From positions 2,232,001 through 2,296,000 of the forward strand of contig NZ_JAEKJZ010000001.1 of the NCBI RefSeq assembly GCF_017309185.1: a stretch of 64,000 nt of DNA. Direction: 5' to 3'. This document shows positions 14,719-64,000 of this stretch, one piece after another (positions within the stretch are counted from its first letter, which is position 1; each line of letters opens with the position of its first letter). The notes under the pieces were generated by a model that saw nothing but the letters and a program-made list of their open reading frames with translations, did no database searches and was not told where the DNA came from. The DNA comes from Roseibium aggregatum. Lineage in GTDB: Bacteria; Pseudomonadota; Alphaproteobacteria; Rhizobiales; Stappiaceae. A program made the position numbers and the translations under genes.

Positions 14719-15957
14719 TCACTCCACGTCCGGACCGGCCGGGATGGACACCGGCTTGTCGATGATATGCTTGTGCGCGCCCATTTTTCCGTGCGAGACG
14801 AGGGTGCCGAGCACGTCCACGATCACCCTTGTGGCGAGCAGGGCGGTGATGTCGGAACAATCGTAAGGCGGCGAGACCTCGACCACTTCCAGCCCGCAAA
14901 TGCCTTCCTTGGCAACGAGAGAAACAAGTTCGAGCGCCTCGCGCGGCAGGAAACCGCCGGGTTCCGGCCAGCCGGTACCCGGAACGAAGCCGCAGTCGAC
15001 ACTGTCGATGTCGAAGGAAATATAGACCGCGTCCGCATCCTTCCAGGCAAGTTCCAGGGCGCGAGCGGCCGTTTCCGCGAGGCCGAGTTCCTCAACGTCG
15101 CGCATGGTGAAGATGTTGGTGTTGCGTTCGCGCGCCACCTCGACCCCTTCGCGCGGCACCTGCCAGCCTCCGATGCCGATCTGAACGAGGTTCACGGCGG
15201 GCACATTGACCAGATCCGTGGCATGGAACCACGGCGTCGTATGCATGCGTTCGTCGAGATCTTTTTCCTGAATGTCGATGTGCCGGTCGAAATGCACGAT
15301 GCCGATGCGTTTGGAAGTGCAGTTCGCAATGCCACGTACGCAGGGAAAGCCAATGGAGTGGTCGCCGCCGATCATGATCGGCAGGGCGCCGGAGGAGGCC
15401 ACGTGAGACACCGCCCTTGTCACCTGATCGAAGGTCTTTTCGATATTGGCGGGGATCGTGAAGATATCGCCGACGTCGCAAAGCGTCATCTGTTCGCGCA
15501 GATCCACGCCCATCTCGTAATTGTAAGGCGTGTAGAGCGCCGAGATCTTCCGCACGCCCTGGGGACCGAAGCGGGTTCCGGGCCGGTAGGTCGTGCCGCC
15601 GTCGAAGGGAACGCCGATGATGGCGGCATCATAGGCGCCGACCTGGGTCACGTCTTCGATGTAAGGCGCCTTGAGGAAGGTGTTGATGCCCGCATAGTGG
15701 GGGAGTTCGCCGCGCGCGAAGGTCGGGATCGACTTGTCCGTCAGGCTGTCGGAGCCGGTCAGTCCCATGCGCAGCGCCCAGGCCTTTTCCTTTTCCCAGG
15801 CCGCGGAGGGCAGGGTGCCTTCCTTTTCCGCCGACTTCCAGCCGCGCAGTTGAAGCTTGTCGAAATCCGGGTGGTGCTGTCTCTTCGCCGGTTCGCGCGT
15901 CAGCTGGCCGGCGGCGCGATGGCGCGTAGAGGGACCTAATTCGGTTGAAAAACTCAT
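14719..15957 (-). CDS. gdmH: Ureohydrolase, probable nickel-dependent guanidine hydrolase
   Basis: This 412-residue member of the arginase/agmatinase superfamily has the metal-site residues intact: GGDH (His200), DRHID (Asp224, His226, Asp228) and SFDID (Asp316, Asp318). It has about 100 residues before the core, longer than typical agmatinases. The last metal motif runs DSVDCGFVPGTGWPEPGG, differing from the usual DPAF form. It is encoded behind a guanidine-I riboswitch and a matching ABC importer. That makes guanidine the likely substrate, giving ammonia and urea, rather than agmatine. A longer frame opens at GTG 15972, but its GAGGA is the ribosome site for ATG 15957. Chemistry is inferred from context and family; no assay is implied. 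Confidence 0.82.
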   Translation of the reverse strand: MSFSTELGPSTRHRAAGQLTREPAKRQHHPDFDKLQLRGWKSAEKEGTLPSAAWEKEKAWALRMGLTGSDSLTDKSIPTFARGELPHYAGINTFLKAPYIEDVTQVGAYDAAIIGVPFDGGTTYRPGTRFGPQGVRKISALYTPYNYEMGVDLREQMTLCDVGDIFTIPANIEKTFDQVTRAVSHVASSGALPIMIGGDHSIGFPCVRGIANCTSKRIGIVHFDRHIDIQEKDLDERMHTTPWFHATDLVNVPAVNLVQIGIGGWQVPREGVEVARERNTNIFTMRDVEELGLAETAARALELAWKDADAVYISFDIDSVDCGFVPGTGWPEPGGFLPREALELVSLVAKEGICGLEVVEVSPPYDCSDITALLATRVIVDVLGTLVSHGKMGAHKHIIDKPVSIPAGPDVE

Positions 15958-15968
15958 GGGGACGTTCC

Positions 15969-16802
15969 TCACGGATGGTTGGGGTCTGAAGGGATGGCCG
16001 CTTCGGCACTGAAAGGCACGCCGATTACAGTGGCGATGTCCTCCGGCTTTTGCCTGGGGCCGGCGACCGGGGCCGAAAGGGGCAGATCGTAGGTGATGGT
16101 CGCTCCGAAACGCTCGGGCGCTTGCGGATCGTGCCGGATCTTGTCGAAGACGAGCAGGCGCGTGCCGAGCTTGAAAGCCTCGTGAATGTCATGGGTGACC
16201 ATGAAAATGGTCATGCCGAGGTCTTGCCAAAGCCCGAGCAACAGCTCGTGCATGTCGACGCGGATACCGGGATCGAGCGCGCCGAAAGGCTCGTCCAGAA
16301 GCAGGATGGCCGGCTTTTTCACCAGCGCCTGGGCAATCGCCAGCCGCTGCTGCATGCCTCCCGAAAGTTGAGCGGGATAGCGGTTCCTGGCGGCGGTGAG
16401 GCCGATACGCTCGAGGAGCTCCTCGATGTCCGAAAAGGCAGTCCGCCGGCTTGATCCGAAGAACCTGCCGGTGAGGGTGGCTGCTTCGAATTCCTTTGCC
16501 AGAATGAGGTTCTCCGCAACGGTGAGATGCGAGAACACGGAATACTTCTGGAAAACGATGCCCCGATCCGGGGTCGGTTCGTCCGGCAGCGGCCTGCCGT
16601 CCAGCATTATATCGCCTCGGGTTGGGAGTTCCTGGGAGAGGAGCATGCGCAGGAATGTGGATTTGCCGCAGCCCGAGGCGCCCACGATCGTGCAGAAACT
16701 GCCCGGCGCGACATCGAGTTCGACCCGTTCCAGAACCGGCGTGCCGTCATAGTACTTTTCAACTCCCCGAACGGAGAGTTTCGGCTGTTGCGAAACGGTC
16801 AT
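15969..16802 (-). CDS. Guanidine/urea-type ABC transporter ATPase
   Basis: This 277-residue ATPase is of the nitrate/taurine (NitT/TauT) class. Walker A is GASGCGKST, the signature is LSGGMQQR and Walker B is LLLDEPFGALD. The ATG at 16802 overlaps the permease stop (ATGA). Longer in-frame sequence upstream is only the permease gene read in another frame. With the binding protein and permease it forms a complete importer, whose riboswitch points to guanidine as cargo. Confidence 0.9.
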   Translation of the reverse strand: MTVSQQPKLSVRGVEKYYDGTPVLERVELDVAPGSFCTIVGASGCGKSTFLRMLLSQELPTRGDIMLDGRPLPDEPTPDRGIVFQKYSVFSHLTVAENLILAKEFEAATLTGRFFGSSRRTAFSDIEELLERIGLTAARNRYPAQLSGGMQQRLAIAQALVKKPAILLLDEPFGALDPGIRVDMHELLLGLWQDLGMTIFMVTHDIHEAFKLGTRLLVFDKIRHDPQAPERFGATITYDLPLSAPVAGPRQKPEDIATVIGVPFSAEAAIPSDPNHP

Positions 16803-17620
16803 AACGCGTCGCCTCCCAGATGATGCCAGCGGAAGGCCCGGCGGGAGAGCAGCAACAGCAACCGGTCGAGCAGGAAGGCCAGCAGCGTGATCCAGGCGAC
16901 ATAGGGAAGGATCACATCCATTGCCAGATAGCGGCGGACCAGGAAGATCCGGTAGCCGAGCCCTCTGGTCGAGGCGATGGCTTCCGCCGAAATCAGGAAG
17001 ATCCAGGCCGGTACCAGGCTGAGCCGCATGCAGGCGATCAGCTTGGGCAGCACCTGCGGCACGACCAGCCGGGTGACCATCTGCCAGACGGACGCGCCGA
17101 GCGTTTCCGCCTTGATGATCATTTCCCTTGGAATATCGAGCACCGCCTGGGCGGTGTAGCGGATCATCACCGGTGCCGTCCCGACGACGATCAGCGCGAT
17201 CTTCGATACCTCTCCCAGCCCGAACACGATGAACAGGATCGGCAGGACGGTGATCGGCGGGATCAGGGAAAATGTCGCGATATAGGGCGCGAGCGCACTG
17301 CGGACATGCGGGACAAAGCCAATCCCGATGCCGATGAGAAGAGCCAAAACGGTGGCCAGCGCCATGCCCGTGCCCAGGCGCCAAAGGCTGTCGAAGGTAT
17401 CGAGCCAAAGCAACAATTCACCGGACCGTTTGTCCGGAACGGCGGCCATGCGCCAGAAGGCCTGCCCCATGCTTTCAAGGGACGGCAGAAGCTTGTCCGC
17501 CGGGTTTTCAAGACGCCGGTAGTGGCTTGCAACCGCATAGGCAACAATCGTCGCGACAAAGGGCACAAGACCCAGGGCAAGGGCTGTCAGCCGTGAGGGC
17601 GACCGGTTGATGACGCGCAT
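16799..17620 (-). CDS. Guanidine/urea-type ABC transporter permease
   Basis: This 273-residue inner-membrane permease is of the NitT/TauT class, with about six hydrophobic segments. The usual EAA-like loop is around residue 170-190 (AETLGASVWQMVTRLVVPQ). It lies 79 bp after the binding-protein gene and overlaps the ATPase gene. One permease gene is present, so it would act as a homodimer. Confidence 0.9.
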   Translation of the reverse strand: MRVINRSPSRLTALALGLVPFVATIVAYAVASHYRRLENPADKLLPSLESMGQAFWRMAAVPDKRSGELLLWLDTFDSLWRLGTGMALATVLALLIGIGIGFVPHVRSALAPYIATFSLIPPITVLPILFIVFGLGEVSKIALIVVGTAPVMIRYTAQAVLDIPREMIIKAETLGASVWQMVTRLVVPQVLPKLIACMRLSLVPAWIFLISAEAIASTRGLGYRIFLVRRYLAMDVILPYVAWITLLAFLLDRLLLLLSRRAFRWHHLGGDAL

Positions 17621-17699
17621 GGCTCGATCCTGGAAATCTCGAGGGAGGAACCGGCGGGACCCGGCCCGGTTGGAGCGGATCCCGCCGGAGACGTCAGGA

Positions 17700-18770
17700 T
17701 CAGAGAGAACCGCCGGCGGCCATCTCCATGAAGCTCGGGTCGAAACGCAGCTTCACGTTGTTCTTGTCCCCGTAGACGGAGCCGTCCGGGAAGGAGACAC
17801 CGACAAACTCCGGGCTTGGCGCGCCTTCGCCGAGAATGCCCTTGTCGAACAGGAATTCCGCCACGAATTTCATGGTCTTGGGCAGATCCTCCGATTTGGT
17901 GAAATCGACCGCGTCCTTGGGGGTGTAGAACATTTTCGTGGTGGCGAGCTGCGCGTCGTAGCCGGCAAGGTCGGTCCCGGAAGCCTCGGCCATGGCGGTT
18001 TTCGCGGCAATGCCTTCCTCGCTGTCGGAGGCCATCAGCGCCATCAGTTCATACCATGCCCCGACAAGCGCCTTACCGAAATCCGGGTTGTCGGCGAGCG
18101 TGTCGGTGTTGACCATCATGATGTCGATGATCTCGCCCGGAATACCCGCGCTGTCGAAGACCTTGTTGGCATTCGGCTGGGCTTCGATTTCGGAAAGCAG
18201 CGGATTCCAGGTAACGACCGCGGTGACATCCGGTGTCGCGTAGGCGGCGATCATGTCGGCATCCGAGGTGTTGACGACCTTCAGGTCCTTTTCGCTCAGA
18301 TCCACCGTATCGAGCGCGCGCGCCAGCAGATAGTGCGAGACGGACAGTTCCACGAGGTTGACGGTCTGGCCCTTGATATCGGCAAGCTCGGTCTTGTCTT
18401 TCAGGATGATGCCGTCGTTGCCGTTGGAATAGTCGCCGACGATCAGAGCGGTGGTGTCGATGCCGCCGCCGGCCGGGATGGAGAGCGCGTCCATATTGGT
18501 CATGGAGCAACCGTCATACTCGCCGGCGGTATACTGGTTGATGGATTCGACATAATCGTTGATCTGGACGATTTCGATGTCGAGCCCGTATTTGTCGGCC
18601 CATTTCTTCATGATGCCGCTGTCTTGCAGATAGCCCCAGGGCATCCAGCCGACATAGATCGACCAGCAGACCTTGAAGTCTTTCTTTTCCTCCGCCTGGG
18701 CGGCGGAATAGGACAGCGGCATGGAAAGCACTGCGGCGAGTAGGGAAGCTTTGGCAATCGATTTCAGCAT
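17700..18770 (-). CDS. Guanidine/urea-type ABC transporter substrate-binding protein
   Basis: This 356-residue protein has a signal peptide ending in SAAQAEE at about residue 26. Its mature sequence begins KDFKVCWSIYVGWMPW. It resembles the binding proteins found beside urea carboxylase/guanidine carboxylase genes (family TIGR03427 as I recall). That fits guanidine import. The long frame starts at 18824, but ATG 18770 has an AGGAG ribosome site (18781-18785) 10 bp upstream and puts the signal peptide at the very start. Confidence 0.88.
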   Translation of the reverse strand: MLKSIAKASLLAAVLSMPLSYSAAQAEEKKDFKVCWSIYVGWMPWGYLQDSGIMKKWADKYGLDIEIVQINDYVESINQYTAGEYDGCSMTNMDALSIPAGGGIDTTALIVGDYSNGNDGIILKDKTELADIKGQTVNLVELSVSHYLLARALDTVDLSEKDLKVVNTSDADMIAAYATPDVTAVVTWNPLLSEIEAQPNANKVFDSAGIPGEIIDIMMVNTDTLADNPDFGKALVGAWYELMALMASDSEEGIAAKTAMAEASGTDLAGYDAQLATTKMFYTPKDAVDFTKSEDLPKTMKFVAEFLFDKGILGEGAPSPEFVGVSFPDGSVYGDKNNVKLRFDPSFMEMAAGGSL

Positions 18771-18801
18771 CTGTGCGCGTCTCCTGTCTTGGGCCCCTGA
18801 A

Positions 18802-18817
18802 CTCCTCCCGAGAGGAG
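18802..18817 (-). promoter_or_regulatory. Leader hairpin before the guanidine binding-protein gene
   Basis: On the minus strand CTCCTC and GAGGAG form a 6-bp stem closed by a UCGG loop, about 30 nt before the start codon. It lies between the riboswitch and the ribosome site. It could be part of the expression platform, since CTCCTC could also pair with the true AGGAG site further down. This is a structural observation only. Confidence 0.45.
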
Positions 18818-18866
18818 CGCTCAATCTGGGCTTACGTCTTGAGGTTCTTGCGCACGGCCGGGAGCA

Positions 18867-18885
18867 GGTTCGCGCGCGCGAAACC
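18867..18885 (-). promoter_or_regulatory. Hairpin directly after riboswitch P1, candidate expression platform
   Basis: On the minus strand GGTTTCGCGCGCGCGAACC begins immediately after the 3' strand of P1 and can fold on itself. Further down, CGUGC (18852-18856) can pair with GCACG of the P1 3' strand (18887-18891), giving a rival structure. A guanidine-stabilised P1 would block that rival. Which fold is on or off is inferred, and no U-run is obvious. Confidence 0.45.
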
Positions 18886-19020
18886 TCGTGCAGTTGTCTC
18901 CCGGGTTTTTGTCCCGCCGTGTCACCGGGCTATGCAGGCCAAAACGACCCTTCCTGCCCGGCTTGCGCCTCTCGGTCCTGCGTTTTTGAAAAAAACCGGA
19001 TCCCTAGGCGCGCTGCACGA
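18886..19020 (-). promoter_or_regulatory. Guanidine-I (ykkC) riboswitch aptamer
   Basis: This is the 135-nt leader of the guanidine operon. Read on the minus strand it shows the conserved blocks of the ykkC guanidine-I class: CCTAGGGATCCG, then GGACCGAGAG, then ACACGGCGGGACAAAAACCC with CCCGGGAGA. A perfect 8-bp P1 helix joins UCGUGCAG (19020-19013) to CUGCACGA (18893-18886). In studied members guanidine binding turns on the downstream gene. The cargo and enzyme genes that follow fit guanidine use. The assignment rests on conserved sequence and pairing that can be read directly. Confidence 0.92.
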
Positions 19021-19031
19021 AAATTAAGGAA

Positions 19032-19048
19032 AGCAAGCGCAGTGCCAG
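19032..19048 (-). promoter_or_regulatory. Sigma-54 (-24/-12) promoter of the guanidine operon
   Basis: Minus-strand sequence CTGGCACTGCGCTTGCT matches the RpoN consensus TGGCACG-N4-TTGCW with one mismatch and the exact spacing. The -24 GG lies at 19046-19045 and the -12 GC at 19034-19033, so the predicted start is about 19021. That is one base before the riboswitch P1 helix. NtrC, encoded in the window, is the natural activator. I found no clear NtrC-binding palindrome in the 200 bp upstream. Confidence 0.8.
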
Positions 19049-19239
19049 TTTGGGCGGAATGTAAAGCTCTCGAACTATCAATGACTTATTTTGTTCCGGT
19101 AATTTCTTCTCGACGACAGAACGAACTTGCAATCAATGTTCTGGCTAAAAACTGGGCGGCAGGTGAACAGTTTCCGGTCAGTTTCGTTGCCAATTCGCTG
19201 CGAGAGAATTGCTTGTCGCAAAAGAAAATATCTTCACCA

Positions 19240-19266
19240 TGTCACAAACGGTCCGGCTGCCTTGTC
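19240..19266 (+). promoter_or_regulatory. ECF41-type promoter before the sigma gene
   Basis: TGTCACA (19240-19246), 16 bp, then TGTC (19263-19266) is close to the ECF41 recognition motif TGTCACA-N16-CGTC, with one change in the -10 block. It is 123 bp before the ECF41 sigma gene, so self-activation is likely. Confidence 0.6.
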
Positions 19267-19301
19267 TTGTCTATCGAACCGACACTTCGAAGGAGGCAAG
19301 C

Positions 19302-19376
19302 ATGCCGCCAAACCCGTTCACCCGATCCGTCCTGCCCGGCCCTTGCAGGGTCGATGACGCAAATGCCAACGCTTGA
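19302..19376 (+). CDS. Possible 24-codon leader ORF before the sigma gene
   Basis: An AAGGAGG ribosome site at 19290-19296 is followed at good spacing by an ATG. The frame encodes 24 residues beginning MPPNPFTRS and stops at TGA 19374-19376, 12 bp before the sigma ATG and in the same frame. The sigma gene itself has no strong ribosome site. It may be a leader peptide coupling translation, or the true 5' end of the sigma gene interrupted by a stop. There is no family evidence for the peptide. Confidence 0.3.
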   Translation: MPPNPFTRSVLPGPCRVDDANANA

Positions 19377-19388
19377 GAACGACCGAAG

Positions 19389-20267
19389 ATGTCCGATACG
19401 GGTCACGATCCGCTTTTCACCGAACAGAGGCCGCAGCTGATCCGTCTTGCCTACCGCATGCTCGGCTCGGTGGCCGATGCGGAAGATGTGGTGCAGGACG
19501 CGTACATGCGCTGGCTCGATGTGAAGCGCGAAGCGGTGAGCGAACCGAAAGCCTATTTACGGACGATTGTCGCGCGCCTTTGCCTGAATGTGCTCAAGTC
19601 TGCCCGTCGCAAGCGCGAAACCTATATCGGTCCCTGGCTGCCAGAACCGGTGTTCGACCCTGAAGACGAGGACATTGCGGACGATATCACGCTGCCGCTG
19701 ATGATGGCGCTGGAACGCCTGTCGCCCCTGGAGCGGACTGCCTTCCTCCTGCATGACATTTTCGCGGTCGGTTACGGCGAAATCGCCGACACCCTGGGCC
19801 GGGAAGAAGCGGCCTGCCGCAAGCTTGCCAGCCGGGCGCGCGAACACATCCACGCCGCGAGGCAGAGATTTGCCGTCGACAGAAAGGAAGGGCGAAGGCT
19901 GGCCGAAGCGTTCTTCCAGGCCTCCAGGACCGGCGATCTGGACGCGCTTCGCGAGTTGCTGCGCGAAGACGCCACGGCTTATTCCGATGGCGGCGGCAAG
20001 GTTGCCGCCTCGCTTCGGCCAATCGTCGGCATCGACGACGTCATGAGACGCTTTGCGCAACTCGCGATCCTGTTCCGGAAACAACCGTCCCGCCTGGTCC
20101 GATATGCAAGCATCGACGGCCTGCCCGGGTTCGTGACCGTCGAGGGCGGTGACATCCTCCAAACGACCGCGCTGCAGATCGAAGAGGGTGCGGTGTCCGC
20201 CGTCTTTGTCCTGCGCAACCCGGACAAGCTGATCAGTCTTCAACGGAGCCTGGCGCAGCAGACCTGA
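19389..20267 (+). CDS. ECF41 (SigJ-like) RNA polymerase sigma factor
   Basis: This 292-residue extracytoplasmic-function sigma factor has region 2 (RLAYRMLGSVADAEDVVQDA, about residues 15-34), region 4 (about residues 115-160) and a C-terminal SnoaL-like extension. The extension carries YSDGGGK at about residue 198 and NPDKL near residue 277, the two marks of the ECF41 group. In that group the extension regulates activity in place of an anti-sigma factor. The usual ECF41 partner is an oxidoreductase or carboxymuconolactone decarboxylase. Here the following flavodoxin-like gene fills that position. Confidence 0.9.
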   Translation: MSDTGHDPLFTEQRPQLIRLAYRMLGSVADAEDVVQDAYMRWLDVKREAVSEPKAYLRTIVARLCLNVLKSARRKRETYIGPWLPEPVFDPEDEDIADDITLPLMMALERLSPLERTAFLLHDIFAVGYGEIADTLGREEAACRKLASRAREHIHAARQRFAVDRKEGRRLAEAFFQASRTGDLDALRELLREDATAYSDGGGKVAASLRPIVGIDDVMRRFAQLAILFRKQPSRLVRYASIDGLPGFVTVEGGDILQTTALQIEEGAVSAVFVLRNPDKLISLQRSLAQQT

Positions 20268-23996: not shown

Positions 23997-24086
23997 TGGC
24001 GGTGAGGGTGGGATTCGAACCCACGGTACGCTCTCACGCACGGCGGTTTTCAAGACCGCTGCCTTAAACCACTCGGCCACCTCACC
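23997..24086 (-). tRNA. tRNA-Ser: tRNA-Ser (anticodon UGA)
   Basis: The minus-strand gene starts GGTGAGG at 24086 and ends CCTCACC-G-CCA at 23997, with encoded CCA. Acceptor arms pair fully. The anticodon loop GGTCTTGAAAACC shows UGA, the variable arm is long as in class II tRNAs, and the T-arm GGTTCGAATCC is complete. Length is 90 nt with CCA. It is a classic integration site for islands, and a relic of an integrase sits just beyond its 3' end. Confidence 0.95.
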
Positions 24087-56959: not shown

Positions 56960-58327
56960 TCAGGTCATGCCCAAGGTTTTCAGCTTCCGGTGAAGCGCAG
57001 AACGTTCCATACCGACAAATTCGGCCGTACGCGAGATATTCCCGTCAAATCTTTTGATCTGCGCCTGAAGATACTCCCGCTCGAAGATTTCGCGCGCCTC
57101 GCGAAGCGGGACGGACATGAGATGCTCTCCGGTCCCGGACGACGGCAGGCTGGGAAGCGTCTCGCCGATTTCGGACGGCAGAAGGTCTGCGGTGATGGTG
57201 CTGTCCGGATCGCCGCGGCTCAAGATGAGCAGCCGTTCCACGTTATTGCGCAACTGGCGTACGTTGCCGGGCCAGTCGTGGGTCTGCAGCACCGCCATTG
57301 CGTCGTCGCCGATCGGCCGCAGGGGAATGCCTGAAGCAGCCGAAATCTGTTCCATGAAATGCGCCACCAGCACGGGAATGTCTTCCCGGCGTTCGGCGAG
57401 CCCCGGGACGCGCAAGGGAACCACGCTCAGCCTGTGATAAAGGTCCTGCCTGAAGAGGCCCGAGGCGATATGCTCCTCAAGGTTTTTCGACGTCGAGGAC
57501 AGGATGCGGATATCGACCTGGACCTTCTGGGTGCCGCCGACCCTGGAAAAACTCTGGTCGACCAGCACACGCAGAATTTTTCCTTGGGTTTCCGCCGGCA
57601 TATCCGCGACTTCGTCGAGATAGAGCGTGCCTCCGTGGGCTTCTTCCAGCGCCCCGATCTTCCTCAGATTGCCGTGCTCGTCTTCGATCCCGAAGAGCTC
57701 TTCCTCCATGCGCGCCGGCGTGATCGTGGCGGCGTTCAGGACGACAAACGGGCTTTTGATCCGCGGCGACAGATCGTGAATCATCCGCGCGGCCCGTTCC
57801 TTGCCCGCACCGGAAGGGCCGACGATGAGGATACGACTGTTCGTGCCGGCGATCTTCTGGATTGTCTGACGAAGATTATGGGCCGCGGAGGAATTTCCGA
57901 CGATATCGCTCGTCTCGCCGCTCCGCTGACGGAGGTCGCGGACCTCCCGTTTCAGGCTCGAGGCCTCAAGGGCCCGTTCGACGATCAGGATCAGCCTGTC
58001 CGATTTGAACGGCTTCTCGATATAGTCATAGGCACCGCGCTTGATCGCCGAGACGGCGGTTTCGATGTTGCCATGACCGGAAATGATCACGACCGGCAGG
58101 TCCGGATCGGTTTCCTTGAGGACGTCGAGCAAAGCCAGCCCGTCGAGCCGGCTGCCCTGGAGCCAGATGTCGAGAACCACAAGCGAAGGCTTGCGCTCCT
58201 TGACGGCAGCAAGCGCGCTGTCGGAATCGTGGGCGGTCCGGGTGCCGTAGCCCTCGTCATCCAGAATACCGGCGATCATTTCGCGAATATCGGTTTCGTC
58301 GTCTACGACAAGAATATCATGCGCCAT
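56960..58327 (-). CDS. ntrX: Nitrogen/redox response regulator NtrX
   Basis: This 455-residue sigma-54-type response regulator has a receiver (phosphorylated Asp in LDIWLQG), an AAA+ domain (Walker A GPSGAGKE near 167) and a C-terminal Fis-type HTH (ISRTAEFVGMERSALHRK). The sigma-54 contact loop GAFTGA is missing: the aligned stretch reads FGIEDEHGNLRKIGALEEA. This loss is known in other alphaproteobacterial NtrX proteins, so it may not activate sigma-54 promoters directly. It overlaps ntrY by 11 bp. Confidence 0.94.
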   Translation of the reverse strand: MAHDILVVDDETDIREMIAGILDDEGYGTRTAHDSDSALAAVKERKPSLVVLDIWLQGSRLDGLALLDVLKETDPDLPVVIISGHGNIETAVSAIKRGAYDYIEKPFKSDRLILIVERALEASSLKREVRDLRQRSGETSDIVGNSSAAHNLRQTIQKIAGTNSRILIVGPSGAGKERAARMIHDLSPRIKSPFVVLNAATITPARMEEELFGIEDEHGNLRKIGALEEAHGGTLYLDEVADMPAETQGKILRVLVDQSFSRVGGTQKVQVDIRILSSTSKNLEEHIASGLFRQDLYHRLSVVPLRVPGLAERREDIPVLVAHFMEQISAASGIPLRPIGDDAMAVLQTHDWPGNVRQLRNNVERLLILSRGDPDSTITADLLPSEIGETLPSLPSSGTGEHLMSVPLREAREIFEREYLQAQIKRFDGNISRTAEFVGMERSALHRKLKTLGMT

Positions 58328-60581
58328 GAGCTGTCACTGTCTGCTCTTCGATTTCGGTTTCCGGTTCAATTTTAGCGTCCGCGGCCAGGGTCAACCGCAC
58401 GAGCGTACCCGTGTCGTCCGGACCGGACTTGGGCGCATCGAGCAACTCGATGCCGCCGCCATGGTCTTCGAGAATTTTCCGGACAATGGCGAGACCGAGG
58501 CCAGTGCCCTTTTCCCGTGTCGTCATATAGGGCTCAAGCAACCGGCTGCGGTTTTCTTCCGGCAGACCGACACCATTGTCAATCACGTCGATCACGATCC
58601 GCCCGCCGCTGTCCTGTGTTTCGCCGCGCAGATAAACCGTGACCTTGCCCTTCGGCAGCTCATCCCCGGTTCGCGCGGCGACAGCCTCGGTCGCGTTTTT
58701 CACCACATTGGTCAGCGCCTGACCGACCAGACGGGCATCGAACACGGCTTTGACGGGAGCCTCGGGCACCTGGGCGGTCACGCTGATCTCCGGATTTGCA
58801 ACCGACTGCATGAAGGCGGCGTCCCGGACGGCTTCCCTGAGGTCGCCCGCGGACTTCGTCGGTTTGCGCATGCGCGCGAAGGATGAAAATTCATCCACCA
58901 TTTGCCCGATATCGCCGACCTGACGGACAATCGTGTCGATACACTGATCGAACACCTGCCGGTCTTCCTCGATCCGTTTGCCGTAACGCCGCCGGATCCG
59001 CTCCGCGGAAAGCTGGATCGGTGTCAGGGGGTTCTTGATCTCATGCGCGATGCGGCGGGCCACATCGGCCCAGGCGGAGTTGCGCTGGGCCGACACGAGG
59101 TCCGTGATATCGTCGAGCGTGACCACGAACCCATGTTCCCGACGCGTTGACTGCTCTTGAGTGATTCTCACGTTGATCGTCCGCAGGCGCCCTTCCCGCG
59201 TGATCTCGATTTGCGTTTCCGGAAGACGGTCCGTGTCGTTTTTCAGGGCATCGGAGATGCAGTCGGCCAGTTCCGGCACGACTTCGATCAACGACCGGTT
59301 CAGGATCTGCACCTCGTCAAGCTGAAGAAGTTCCAGGGCGGACCTGTTGATCAGCATGATCGACGCCTCGTCGTCCACGCCGATCACACCGGTGGAAACC
59401 CCCGACAGAACCGCTTCGTTGAACCGGCGCCTTCGGTCGATCTGCTCGTTTGCCGCCAGCAGGGCATCGCGCTGACCGAGCAACTGACCGGTCATCTTGT
59501 TGAAGGTGAGCCCGAGATTGGACAGATCGCCTCCGGCCTTGTCCGTTTCGACCTTTACCGCCAGATTGCCCTTGGACACTTCGTCAGCCGCGGAAATCAG
59601 GGTTCTGATGGGCGAGACCAGGCTGTTGGCGAATCCGAACCCGATCCAGATCGCGGACAGAAGCAGAACCAGGGCGACACCGAGATAGACAAGCGCGAAG
59701 GCCACCTGCACCCCGAACCGGCTGTTTTCCATCTGCTGATACTGGGAGGCGCCCTGTTCGGTCAGGCGCAGATAGTCGAGAACCCTCGGATCGATCGCCC
59801 GGACCGCGTAGAGATAATAATTGTCGTAGGCGGACAGTTTCATGATTCCGCCGACCAGGTTGGAACTCCCTGGCGCAATCAGGACCGGCGCGCCTTCCTT
59901 GGCCTTCGAAAAACTGTCATTTGGCGGCAGAGGTATCTTCGCGTTTGGATCGTGAACAACCCTTGTCACCACCTCTCCGTCTTCATTCAGGATAAAGGCG
60001 GCGAGGATCCCGCGTAAGGACACCTGCGTGGAAAAAAACTGATCGAACCGGCTGGGCTCGAAGTCATAGACGGCCTTGGCCCTGTCGATATCGTTGGTCA
60101 TGGCGATGAGATCGCCGCGCAACACCCTTGCATGCTCCTGGAGATAGGCCTGGGCAACGGTCAGGGCGTTATCGACAATCTGCCGGGTCCGTTCCTCGAA
60201 CCAGCGGTCCAGTCCCCGGTCAAGCGTGATTGCCGCAAGGATTGCCATCAGGACCGCGGGAACCGCGGCGACGATACTGAAGAGTGCGACGACCCTGACA
60301 TGGAGCCGTGCCGCGGCTCGGCCGCGGCGCCGCGCTTGCCAGAGCTTCACGATCTCAAAGGCGATCAGGCACAGGAGGATCGCGGCCAAGGCACCGTTGA
60401 TCGCCATGGCCTTCAAGATCACGTCGCGGGTCGGATCGATGGTGGTCAGCCCCATCAGGATCGCGAAGGTCACCCCGATGGAGACGAGCGCGATCACCAT
60501 GATGGCGAGGCCGGCTCGCCGCCAGAGTTTTCCCCGTCCGCCCGACCGTGCGCCGGCTCTCTCGCTCACTCCAAGGATCAT
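58317..60581 (-). CDS. ntrY: Sensor histidine kinase NtrY
   Basis: This 754-residue membrane kinase has three or four N-terminal hydrophobic helices, a HAMP (about residues 310-360), a PAS region, HisKA with [20 protein letters not shown], and a C-terminal ATPase (DNGVGLPEENRSRLLEPY). It phosphorylates NtrX. It is downstream of ntrC with a 220-bp gap. Confidence 0.95.
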   Translation of the reverse strand: MILGVSERAGARSGGRGKLWRRAGLAIMVIALVSIGVTFAILMGLTTIDPTRDVILKAMAINGALAAILLCLIAFEIVKLWQARRRGRAAARLHVRVVALFSIVAAVPAVLMAILAAITLDRGLDRWFEERTRQIVDNALTVAQAYLQEHARVLRGDLIAMTNDIDRAKAVYDFEPSRFDQFFSTQVSLRGILAAFILNEDGEVVTRVVHDPNAKIPLPPNDSFSKAKEGAPVLIAPGSSNLVGGIMKLSAYDNYYLYAVRAIDPRVLDYLRLTEQGASQYQQMENSRFGVQVAFALVYLGVALVLLLSAIWIGFGFANSLVSPIRTLISAADEVSKGNLAVKVETDKAGGDLSNLGLTFNKMTGQLLGQRDALLAANEQIDRRRRFNEAVLSGVSTGVIGVDDEASIMLINRSALELLQLDEVQILNRSLIEVVPELADCISDALKNDTDRLPETQIEITREGRLRTINVRITQEQSTRREHGFVVTLDDITDLVSAQRNSAWADVARRIAHEIKNPLTPIQLSAERIRRRYGKRIEEDRQVFDQCIDTIVRQVGDIGQMVDEFSSFARMRKPTKSAGDLREAVRDAAFMQSVANPEISVTAQVPEAPVKAVFDARLVGQALTNVVKNATEAVAARTGDELPKGKVTVYLRGETQDSGGRIVIDVIDNGVGLPEENRSRLLEPYMTTREKGTGLGLAIVRKILEDHGGGIELLDAPKSGPDDTGTLVRLTLAADAKIEPETEIEEQTVTAHGA

Positions 60582-60801: not shown

Positions 60802-62241
60802 CTAACGCGTGGAACGCATGACCTGAATGTCGAGATCCCGGATCTTCTTGCGCAGGGTGTTCCGGTTCACGCCAAGCAGTTCCGCCGCCTTGATCTGATT
60901 GCCGCGCGTCGCCGCAAGCGCGGCACTGATCAGGGGGTACTCCACCTCCCGAAGGATGCGATGGTAAAGTCCCGGCGGCGGCAAAGCATCCCCGAAGGTT
61001 TCGAAATAGCCCGCCAGATAACGTTCGACGGCGCCGCCGAGATTGACCGTCTCGGGCGTTTCATCCTCGATCGGACTGGTGGTCGGCTGGCTCAGTTCAT
61101 GATCCAGCAGGCTTTCGCTGATCACGTCCTGCGGATAGAGCGCAGCCAGTCGCCGGACCAGGTTTTCAAGCTCGCGAACGTTGCCGGGCCAGCGGTAACG
61201 GCGCAGCAGGTTGAGCGCGCCCTGGTCGATCTGTTTGGCCGGAAGGCCTTCCTTTTCCACGAGCGAGAAGAAATGACGCACCAGATCAGGAATGTCTTCC
61301 ACGCGTTCGCGCAACGGCGGCAGACGGATCGGAACGACATTCAGCCGGAAATAAAGGTCTTCGCGGAAAAGACCCTGATTGATCAGGTGACGCAAATCCT
61401 TGTTGGTCGCGGCGATAATCCTGACATCGGTCTTGATCGGCGTCCGCCCGCCGACGGTCGTGTATTCGCCCTGCTGCAGAACGCGCAGCAGACGCGTCTG
61501 GGCCTCCATCGGCATGTCGCCGATTTCATCCAGGAACAATGTGCCCCCGTCCGCCTGCTCAAAGCGGCCTGAACTGCGGTTCTGAGCACCGGTGAAGGCG
61601 CCTTTTTCGTGCCCGAAGAGTTCCGCTTCAATCAGGTCGCGCGGGATCGCTGCCATGTTGATGGCCACGAACGGACCGTTGCGGCGCTTGCCGTAGTCGT
61701 GCAGGGCTCTTGCGACCAGTTCCTTGCCGGTTCCGGATTCCCCGTTGATCATGACCGTCAGGTCGGTCTGCATCAGCCGGGCCAGAACCCGGTAGATTTC
61801 CTGCATGGCCGGAGACCGTCCGACCAGCGGCATTCCCTCTCCCGCATCGTCGAGATCGACCGCCGGACGCTTCTTGGGTTCTTCCAGCGCCCGCTGGACA
61901 ATGCTGGTCAGTTCCTTGAGATCGAACGGCTTGGGAAGATATTCGTAAGCCCCCTTCTCCGACGCCTTGATTGCCGTCATGAACGTGTTTTGGGCGCTCA
62001 TCACCAGAACGGGCAGTTCCGGACGCATTTTCTTCATGCGCGGCAAAACGTCGAAGATGTTCTCGTCCGGCATCACCACATCGGTGATCACCAGGTCGCC
62101 GTCGCCCGACGACACCCATCGCCAGAGCGTCGACGCGTTCGAGGTCAGTCTGACGGTGTAACCGGCCCGGGACAGGGCCTGATTGAGGACGGTGCGAATG
62201 GCCGCGTCGTCGTCCGCAACTAAGATCGTGCCTGTCGGCAT
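60802..62241 (-). CDS. ntrC: Nitrogen regulator NtrC
   Basis: This 479-residue response regulator activates sigma-54 promoters under nitrogen limitation. The receiver Asp is in [13 protein letters not shown]. The AAA+ domain has GESGTGKE, the full sigma-54 contact loop GAFTGA, and LFLDEIGD. The C-terminal HTH is [19 protein letters not shown] 62241 is preferred to TTG 62247, which is nearer to the ntrB stop. A sigma-54 promoter is present on this window at 19032-19048. Confidence 0.96.
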
Positions 62242-62243
62242 GG

Positions 62244-63395
62244 TCAATCAGTTCCTTTTCTGGTCCGCTCGGAAGTCGTCGCAGCGGCATCCGTGAAAGC
62301 TGGCATTAAGATCCGGAAAACGGTTTTCTGACGCTGGCTGTCACATTCGATAACGCCGCCATGATCTCCGATGATCTTGGCAACGAGCGCCAGTCCAAGG
62401 CCGGATCCGTTGGTCTTGGTCGTGATGAATGGCTCGAAAAGATGAGGCAGGAGATCGTCCGGGACGCCCGGGCCGTTATCCTGAACGCAAAACTCGAGCG
62501 GCAGGCTGACCTTCTCGTCCGTTCCGGGAACGGAGAGACGCACGCCCGGCCGGAAAGCGGTCGAAATGCGGATCTCGCCGTCCGGATCGTCGCCTATGGC
62601 CTCGCTGGCATTCTTTATCAGATTGAGAAAGACCTGAATCAACTGGTCCTTGTTCGCGTAGACCGGCGGAAGCGAGGGATCGTATGTCTCGACAATCCGT
62701 TTTCCCCGGGCAAATCCGCTGTCGGCCAGCCGTTTCACGTGATCCAGAACGACGTGAATATTGACCGGCTCCCGCTCGATCGGCCGTTCGTCTGAAAAAA
62801 CCTCCATCCGGTCGACCAATTTCACGATCCGGTCGGTCTCGTCCATGATCAAACGGGTCAGCGCCCGGTCCTCGTTCGGGACGGACTGCTCGAGAAGCTG
62901 GGCCGCGCCGCGAATTCCAGAAAGCGGGTTCTTGATCTCATGTGCCAGCATCGCCGCCAGCCCGGTCACCGTGCGCGCCGCGCCGCGCGACGTCAGTTGC
63001 CGGTCGATCTTTTCCGCCATCGTGCGTTCTTGGAACATCAGCACAACGGCCCCGGGTCGCTCAGCGACGGGCGCCGCGTTGATGTCGACCACCTTTGGCG
63101 CTCCGATCCGCGGGGAACCGATATCCACCTTGTATTCATTGACCGGAGCGCTGCGCTCGCGCACTTGCTCGATGAGCGTCAGCAAGGGACTGCCGAAGGG
63201 GACAAATTCGCTGATAGGATAGCGGCGCAGAACCGACACGCTCGAGCGCATGAAGATTTCGGCCGCCATATTGGCCGATTCGATGACGCCGTCTGGGGCG
63301 ACCAGTAAAACCGGATGCGGAAGGGCATCCAGGATGGTCGGCCCGTCACTGGCAAGTGCGGCTGTCCGGCCCGTCGGGGACTTTGTCGTCGTCAC
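62244..63395 (-). CDS. ntrB: Nitrogen sensor kinase NtrB
   Basis: This 383-residue soluble kinase has a PAS domain (about residues 30-130), HisKA with [20 protein letters not shown] and an ATPase domain with [17 protein letters not shown]. The start is GTG 63395, which overlaps the dusB stop (GTGA). The frame opens earlier at 63455, inside dusB. It phosphorylates NtrC when glutamine is low. Confidence 0.94.
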
Positions 63396-64000
63396 GCGGC
63401 TTCCCGTTCGTTTGAGGAGGAAAACCAATCGGTCGCAAGGCGCAACACCTCGCAAGGCTGATTGGAACTCATAAGCGTTTTCCTGAGCGACGTCGGCATT
63501 GGATCCGCGCCTTGAGTAACGGCTTCGTCGATGTACCAGCCGATGTGCTTGCGCGCGATGCGCACGCCCGCAACGGGCCCGTAATGCTGAAGCATGTCTT
63601 CGTAGTGACCGCCGACAAGGTCGGAGAGCTCACGCCCGCCGGGTGGTGAAAGCCGTTCCCCCGTCGCCAGGTAATGCCCGATGTGCCCGGGCAGCCACGG
63701 GCGTCCGTAGGCCCCACGGCCAATCATCACACCATCGGCTCCGGACTGTTCCAGCATGCTGACCGCGTCCCGAGCCTCCTTGCAGTCACCGTTGGCGATG
63801 ACCGGAATTGTCACCGATTGCTTCACTTTCGAAATCGCGGCCCAATCCGCCTTGCCCTTGTAGAACTGGCACCGCGTACGTCCGTGAACCGTAATCAGCT
63901 GAACCCCTGCATCTTGCGCGCGCCGCGCCAGCTCCGGCGCGTTAAGGGACGTCTCGTCCCAGCCGAGGCGCATCTTCAGGGTGACAGGGACATCCACCGC
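63392..64000 (-). CDS. dusB: tRNA-dihydrouridine synthase DusB (NifR3), 5' end outside window
   Basis: This is the C-terminal part (203 residues) of the flavin enzyme that reduces uridine in tRNA. It shows [10 protein letters not shown] at the window edge, [25 protein letters not shown] and [12 protein letters not shown], typical of the family. The stop overlaps the ntrB GTG. dusB before ntrB is the classic alphaproteobacterial order. Confidence 0.93.

Follow-up and report, generated by a model that had tools for sequence, protein, structure and literature searches.

The leader of an operon in Roseibium aggregatum raises the question of whether two nitrogen signals, general starvation and the presence of a specific substrate, can be read one after the other in a single stretch of DNA and RNA. 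The initial annotation of the window (the whole 64,000 nt stretch that was analysed) proposed that a minus-strand sigma-54 promoter there starts transcription almost exactly at a guanidine-I (ykkC) riboswitch, and that expression would require both nitrogen limitation and guanidine.

The Roseibium leader and its operon

A covariance-model search of the window places the guanidine-I aptamer at 18896–19018 on the minus strand (Rfam RF00442, 73.3 bits against a gathering score of 63). The match is full length (model positions 1–107, E 4e-11), and at E ≤ 0.001 it is the sole match in the whole 6.12 Mb genome. In the predicted fold, the 5′ strand of an 8 bp P1 helix, UCGUGCAG (19013–19020, minus strand), pairs with the 3′ strand CUGCACGA (18886–18893, minus strand). 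The sigma-54 −24/−12 element, TGGCACTGCGCTTGC, lies at 19047–19033 on the minus strand, has GG-N10-GC with consensus flanks and is perfect and unique in the window, being the only zero-mismatch site among 54 matches to TGGCACN5TTGC with at most two mismatches. The usual distance from the −12 box to +1 places the predicted transcription start at 19021 (minus strand), 12 nt past the C at −12 and one base ahead of the 8 bp P1. The close fit of start and first helix, on which the annotation was built, is thus borne out in its coordinates and pairing by the fold, with the start itself a prediction.

Such an element could be a chance match or inherited background, the riboswitch alone being of importance. 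Window matches with up to two mismatches are indeed common and at chance level, 54 found against 66 expected. The Roseibium site, however, is perfect and stands in a fixed register. Across its 6.12 Mb the genome has perfect TGGCAYN5TTGC sites at 37 places, as opposed to 17 for a reversed-pattern control; at this density, the chance of a perfect one in a given 10 nt register is about 3e-5. The genome also has one copy of rpoN (C1:46952–47431, E 8.8e-69).

One candidate for how guanidine would act on this leader is an alternative stem. The segment CUCCCGG (18858–18864, minus strand) complements CCGGGAG at 18904–18898, the 3′ end of the aptamer, and the leader containing it is conserved in the genus. 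Forced folds give −100.1 kcal/mol for the P1 state and −99.1 kcal/mol for the alternative stem (unconstrained, −101.2 kcal/mol); the two states differ little, within about 2 kcal/mol. A scan of 18700–19400 finds no terminator-like site, and a T-run is present in 3/32 leaders of the genus, 273 nt from the core. A ribosome-site helix, GUGCGC/GCGCAC, was considered as the switch and rejected, since it forms in both forced states and therefore fails to explain switching. With guanidine-I riboswitches, downstream transcription is reported to be permitted only with guanidine (PMC11410670, in the part available).

The leader is followed on the minus strand by genes for an ABC importer and a hydrolase. 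The substrate-binding protein (17700–18770) is NMT1-like and matches TIGR03427 with 570.6 bits (cut-off 333.9), a family named ‘putative urea ABC transporter’. A permease (16799–17620; PF00528, 72.8 bits) is followed by an ATPase at 15969–16793, whose start is approximate; the mechanical open reading frame extends to 17408, and PF00005 is matched at residues 226–375 of this long frame. The fourth gene (14719–15972) encodes a GdmH-like member of the arginase superfamily, a predicted guanidinase as judged from solved structures. Its best matches, with the query taken from 15924, are 7esr/7oi1 (E 4e-162) and 9fek (E 2e-157), which we take to be the guanidinases of Synechocystis and Nitrospira; proclavaminate amidinohydrolase comes next (E 3e-51). 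In view of the importer genes and the closeness to these structures, the predicted function of the operon at 14719–18770 is most likely guanidine import and hydrolysis. Elsewhere in the window, a tRNA gene with a long variable arm is found at 24000–24086 on the minus strand (RF00005, 63.4 bits).

Distribution among guanidine-I loci

The annotation suggested looking at other ykkC leaders for −24/−12 elements. RF00442 matches were present in 39/87 genomes of the family, 101/397 genomes drawn from the order and 57/397 drawn from the phylum. After removal of duplicates 216 places were examined (86 loci and 130 further stretches), and for an element to be counted, GG and GC had to be intact and no more than one position could differ from TGGCAY-N5-TTGC, within a region from −90 to +15 relative to the aptamer. 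By this measure, among the 186 guanidine-I loci scoring 50 bits or more, 154 have the element and 96 have it in perfect form; the 30 weak RF00442 places below 50 bits, which are excluded from the 186, have none. The family, order and phylum sets contribute 34/35, 76/90 and 44/61, respectively, and at ≥63 bits 75/87 loci of the order have the element. Within the genus of the window, 32/33 loci with ≥50 bits have it at the same place, and 32 of the 154 element-bearing loci thus come from one genus.

The controls are low. With spacers of N3, N4, N6 or N7 in place of N5, matches occur in 2, 1, 12 and 3 of the same loci (vs 154), and with the search region moved 200, 300, 400 or 500 nt upstream, in 4, 3, 1 and 0. 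In the same order, the element occurs in 0/30 guanidine-II and 0/30 TPP loci, 30 loci being listed per class; at the sequence level it is specific to guanidine-I relative to these two other riboswitch classes. In the alignment of the genus, the −24/−12 element is kept while upstream DNA diverges. The survey contradicts a chance or background origin, which can hardly be credited any longer, and the sigma-54 promoter at the guanidine-I leader is almost certainly real.

The register of promoter and aptamer is also conserved. In 87 perfect proximal cases the predicted start is 6–16 nt ahead of the CTAGGG core, and in 55 of these the distance is 12 nt. A loose joint pattern applied to contigs of GTDB species finds at least 118 stretches. 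Mesorhizobium, Rhizobium, Devosia, Bradyrhizobium, Azospirillum, Thalassospira, Acinetobacter and Solimonas are among the genera in the matches listed; there, a gap of 20–26 is found in 101/119, though 12–40 was allowed. Positions that the pattern left free are A followed by C or T in 102/105 of the matches listed with gaps of 20–28, compared with 5/14 outside this range.

The phylum set differs in geometry. Only nine of its 44 elements are perfect, and it holds all of a distal class, 43 of the 154, in which the element is 45–75 nt from the core; 26/43 of these have TCGC in the −12 box and 9/43 are perfect. Therefore, a start at P1 is not universal; as predicted from sequence it prevails in the family and the order, but not everywhere. 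Both Alpha- and Gammaproteobacteria appear to share the design, some with the promoter predicted further upstream, and its scope is far wider than the window. The aptamer is present in 4/4 named plasmid records, and the element is perfect in those of Rhizobium etli and Pantoea. A Caballeronia plasmid, the only named betaproteobacterial record (L365), has an element with two mismatches and is counted as a miss, and a Rhodobacteraceae record has riboswitch and operon with the element absent.

Gene labels for the surveyed loci were taken from tblastn seeds because first-gene clusters 3–5 contain wrong-frame open reading frames. Sorted by first recognised gene, the element is found in 8/14 loci with UAAP, 0/2 with arginase and 6/9 with permease, numbers too few to compare; an SMR exporter gene was recognised in none of the first genes.

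Several loci depart from the usual gene content. In cluster 1, 26 loci (including L264 and L266–L273) have mostly weak RF00442 matches (33–58 bits), have the element in none, and share a first gene that looks DMT/EamA-type, judged from one protein examined; these loci are possibly another ykkC subtype. One locus (L177, genome G260) has a guanidine-I leader and a perfect element before a substrate-binding protein that looks peptide/opine-type and replaces the usual one, and its transporter is a candidate for uptake of another guanidino compound. Another (L243, genome G429) has a guanidine-I aptamer of 76 bits, without the sigma-54 element, before a hydrolase of apparent metallo-beta-lactamase fold. 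In ten genomes (G138, G234, G087, G183, G260, G109, G304, G268, G213 and G008) guanidine-I is followed on its own strand, after about 2.9–5 kb, by a guanidine-II riboswitch, and in an eleventh, G312, the downstream guanidine-II is below the cut-off. In Rhizobium etli CIAT 652 (L366:5133–5182) guanidine-II lies just ahead of the fourth gene, such that two classes of guanidine riboswitch are present in one operon.

Candidate activator sites and co-occurrence with rpoN

A sigma-54 promoter calls for an activator, and the annotation pointed to ntrBC in the same window. This holds: the gene at 60802–62247 (minus strand) matches TIGR01818 with 714.4 bits (cut-off 558.6). The kinase gene beside it (62244–63455, minus strand), which also adjoins a dusB-like gene, is ntrB-like; NR(II) is its best match, but its 184 bits are below the cut-off of 240. 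Also on the minus strand are ntrX (56960–58327; NF051870, 751 bits) and an adjoining histidine kinase (58317–60581), by its position probably ntrY. It should be pointed out that the presence of ntrBC in the window is little proof, since NtrC works in trans from anywhere.

The dyad TGC-N11-GCA occurs upstream of 82 of 240 distinct elements, compared with 20/240 in the control region; with the remaining spacings between 3 and 19 the count is 15–34 of 240, and shuffles average 22. This signal first arose in a looser dyad test and was then tested at all spacings from 3 to 19; a generic search for 5-mer dyads has no single winner. NifA was rejected as activator, as its motif TGT-N10-ACA is at chance (4/240). 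TGC-N11-GCA is the published NtrC motif (PMC10746234, in part) and its sites here are most frequent between about −75 and −150; enterobacterial NtrC sites are usually 100–150 nt upstream (PMC5491218, in part). The leader on plasmid pC of Rhizobium etli CIAT 652 combines an exact box with its perfect element.

At the Roseibium locus, a candidate NtrC-type activating site, CGCCCAGTTTTTAGCCA (19142–19158, minus strand), is centred at about −129. It scores 8.8 with a matrix built from TGC-N11-GCA sites, and is weak by itself because 37/240 control windows reach a score of 8. When 32 loci of the genus are aligned, three blocks before P1 stand out as conserved: one is a T-rich site of TGCC type, the next the IHF-like TAA-TCATTGA and the last the −24/−12 element itself. 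A pattern for the T-rich site, devised after viewing this alignment, matches 23/32 loci of the genus, most of them between −120 and −152, and 0/32 shifted windows. The tentative IHF-like block, AATAAGTCATTGAT (19077–19090, minus strand), lies between activator site and promoter and is conserved in the genus; its complement fits the IHF consensus, WATCAANNNNTTR. The exact IHF consensus is weakly enriched, in 15/240 loci vs 2/240 upstream.

Perhaps another enhancer-binding protein, e.g. NtrX, opens the sigma-54 promoter. The weakness of the Roseibium site against the matrix would agree with this, as would the location of ntrX within the window and the absence of an exact TGC-N11-GCA from the tested region in 158/240 loci. 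Against it, the sole enriched dyad spacing matches the published NtrC box, with most sites at −75 to −150, NifA boxes are not enriched, and NtrC dependence has been published for a similarly labelled operon (PMC5491218, in part). A different activator is therefore unlikely, and NtrC is very probably the activator. Of the 37 sigma-54 sites in the genome, 30 were examined, and four of them (L343, L345, L362 and L363) have strong boxes (13.6–18.0) at −108 to −154. Three of these precede a likely substrate-binding protein, as read from the protein start, and the four are candidates for further NtrC operons.

The element is also associated with rpoN itself, scored as an RpoN DNA-binding domain above the cut-off. 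The sample was taken from 116 order and phylum genomes, with 11 element-bearing ones left out, and the family set was represented by two genomes (G000 and G036). Every one of the 85 tested genomes with the element has rpoN, as opposed to 16/21 of those that have guanidine-I at ≥63 bits and no element (Fisher 2e-4). The rpoN-less, element-less genomes are G634, G708, G781 and G807, together with G786, where a fragment is below the cut-off. These five belong to a single family, f60, and the losses may thus be one event. Another member of this family, G751, has two copies of rpoN, yet no element. The element is absent from 32/186 loci, only five of which are in genomes found without rpoN; two of the 16 with rpoN (L004 and L168) retain the −24 box but have a change in the last C of the −12 box.

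In these f60 relatives the riboswitch operon persists although both rpoN and the element are missing, so other promoters can serve it. This leads to the question of whether the Roseibium operon is also read from an additional promoter of sigma-70 type, with sigma-54 merely boosting expression, in which case the signals would be additive and not an AND. A consensus scan, which weak or unusual promoters would escape, detects no sigma-70-like site in 18700–19400, and the upstream blocks conserved in the 32 genus loci are those of an activator-type site, an IHF-like block and −24/−12. An additive scheme is thus improbable, slightly more so than a different activator.

The preferred reading is a promoter and a riboswitch in series. 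Sigma-54 RNA polymerase would bind −24/−12, and phosphorylated NtrC, sitting at an enhancer about 75–150 bp upstream, would open the promoter only under nitrogen shortage. The RNA would begin directly with the guanidine-I aptamer; binding of guanidine would stabilize P1, and otherwise downstream expression would stop. With the two gates in series, production of importer and guanidinase would require both a scarcity of nitrogen and the presence of guanidine. It is highly probable that an NtrC/sigma-54 promoter and a guanidine riboswitch act here one after the other, as an AND gate for guanidine nitrogen. The two-signal interpretation of the annotation is therefore supported; the AND logic is something we infer, and its strict form is probable, if with somewhat less assurance.

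Guanidine as a probable nitrogen source and comparison with known systems

Given how widespread its riboswitches are, the role of guanidine for bacteria has been called an open question (PMC12186494, in part). A conserved sigma-54/NtrC gate before the aptamer suggests that in these lineages guanidine is an emergency nitrogen food, handled as a secondary nitrogen source and not only as a poison. Guanidine use would then belong to the nitrogen regulon in rhizobia, Acinetobacter, Azospirillum, Pantoea and others, and the leader offers a directly testable two-signal gate. More broadly, it is likely that most guanidine-I assimilation leaders in rpoN-bearing Pseudomonadota act as a second stage after an NtrC/sigma-54 promoter, often with a start at the first helix of the aptamer in Alphaproteobacteria and Acinetobacter. 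Guanidine would then be a regular member of the nitrogen starvation response, and loss of rpoN would remove the first gate while the riboswitch stays.

The annotation knew of no described sigma-54 plus ykkC leader. Likewise, the literature searched, whose coverage is incomplete, yielded no description of sigma-54 or NtrC together with a guanidine riboswitch, and no arrangement in which sigma-54 transcription starts at the opening helix of an aptamer. Related operons have been described. The guanidine-I operons of Synechocystis (gdmH) and comammox Nitrospira combine, as here, the same aptamer family and a guanidinase (PMC12186494 and PMC11410670, each in part). An ABC importer is found downstream in Synechocystis, as in Roseibium (same sources), whereas comammox Nitrospira has an APC permease in its place. 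The available parts of the two reports do not mention a sigma-54/NtrC promoter; in Roseibium, −24/−12 feeds the aptamer directly.

Published transcriptomes may already contain operons of this kind under other labels. In Burkholderia cenocepacia H111, genes I35_7283–7286 (‘urea carboxylase’ and transporter) are NtrC-activated; I35_7286 is down 6.0 log2 in the ntrC mutant, and sigma-54 also regulates 95% of the top 150 NtrC genes (PMC5491218, in part). Similarly, 102 COG3665 genes are predicted to be under sigma-54, and 59% of these are named ‘urea carboxylase’ (PMC12316311, in part). Both sets are similarly named and sigma-54/NtrC-controlled, but are labelled as urea genes. The main text of PMC5491218, as available, contains neither ‘guanidin’ nor ‘riboswitch’, and in the available text of PMC12316311 ‘guanidine’ is absent and ‘riboswitch’ occurs solely in a reference title. 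Such transcriptomes under urea labels are consistent with the two-switch reading, and their ‘urea carboxylase’ matches are possible guanidine genes and worth re-reading.

NtrC/sigma-54 scavenging promoters, such as those of glnA, glnK and the nitrate and urea operons, share with this leader the −24/−12 element and have an enhancer box, usually 100–150 nt upstream (PMC5491218, in part), for which the leader offers the weak candidate at about −129. Unlike at these promoters, the substrate-specific gate in the guanidine leader would come after the general starvation gate. We know of no ligand-sensing RNA at the transcript start of the glnA, glnK, nitrate or urea promoters. The glutamine riboswitch of gifB is cyanobacterial and is not known to involve sigma-54. 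Like the guanidine leader, it senses a nitrogen compound from within the 5′ untranslated region of a nitrogen metabolism gene (PMC9731577, in part), but gifB encodes an inactivating factor of glutamine synthetase, whereas the Roseibium leader precedes a catabolic operon.
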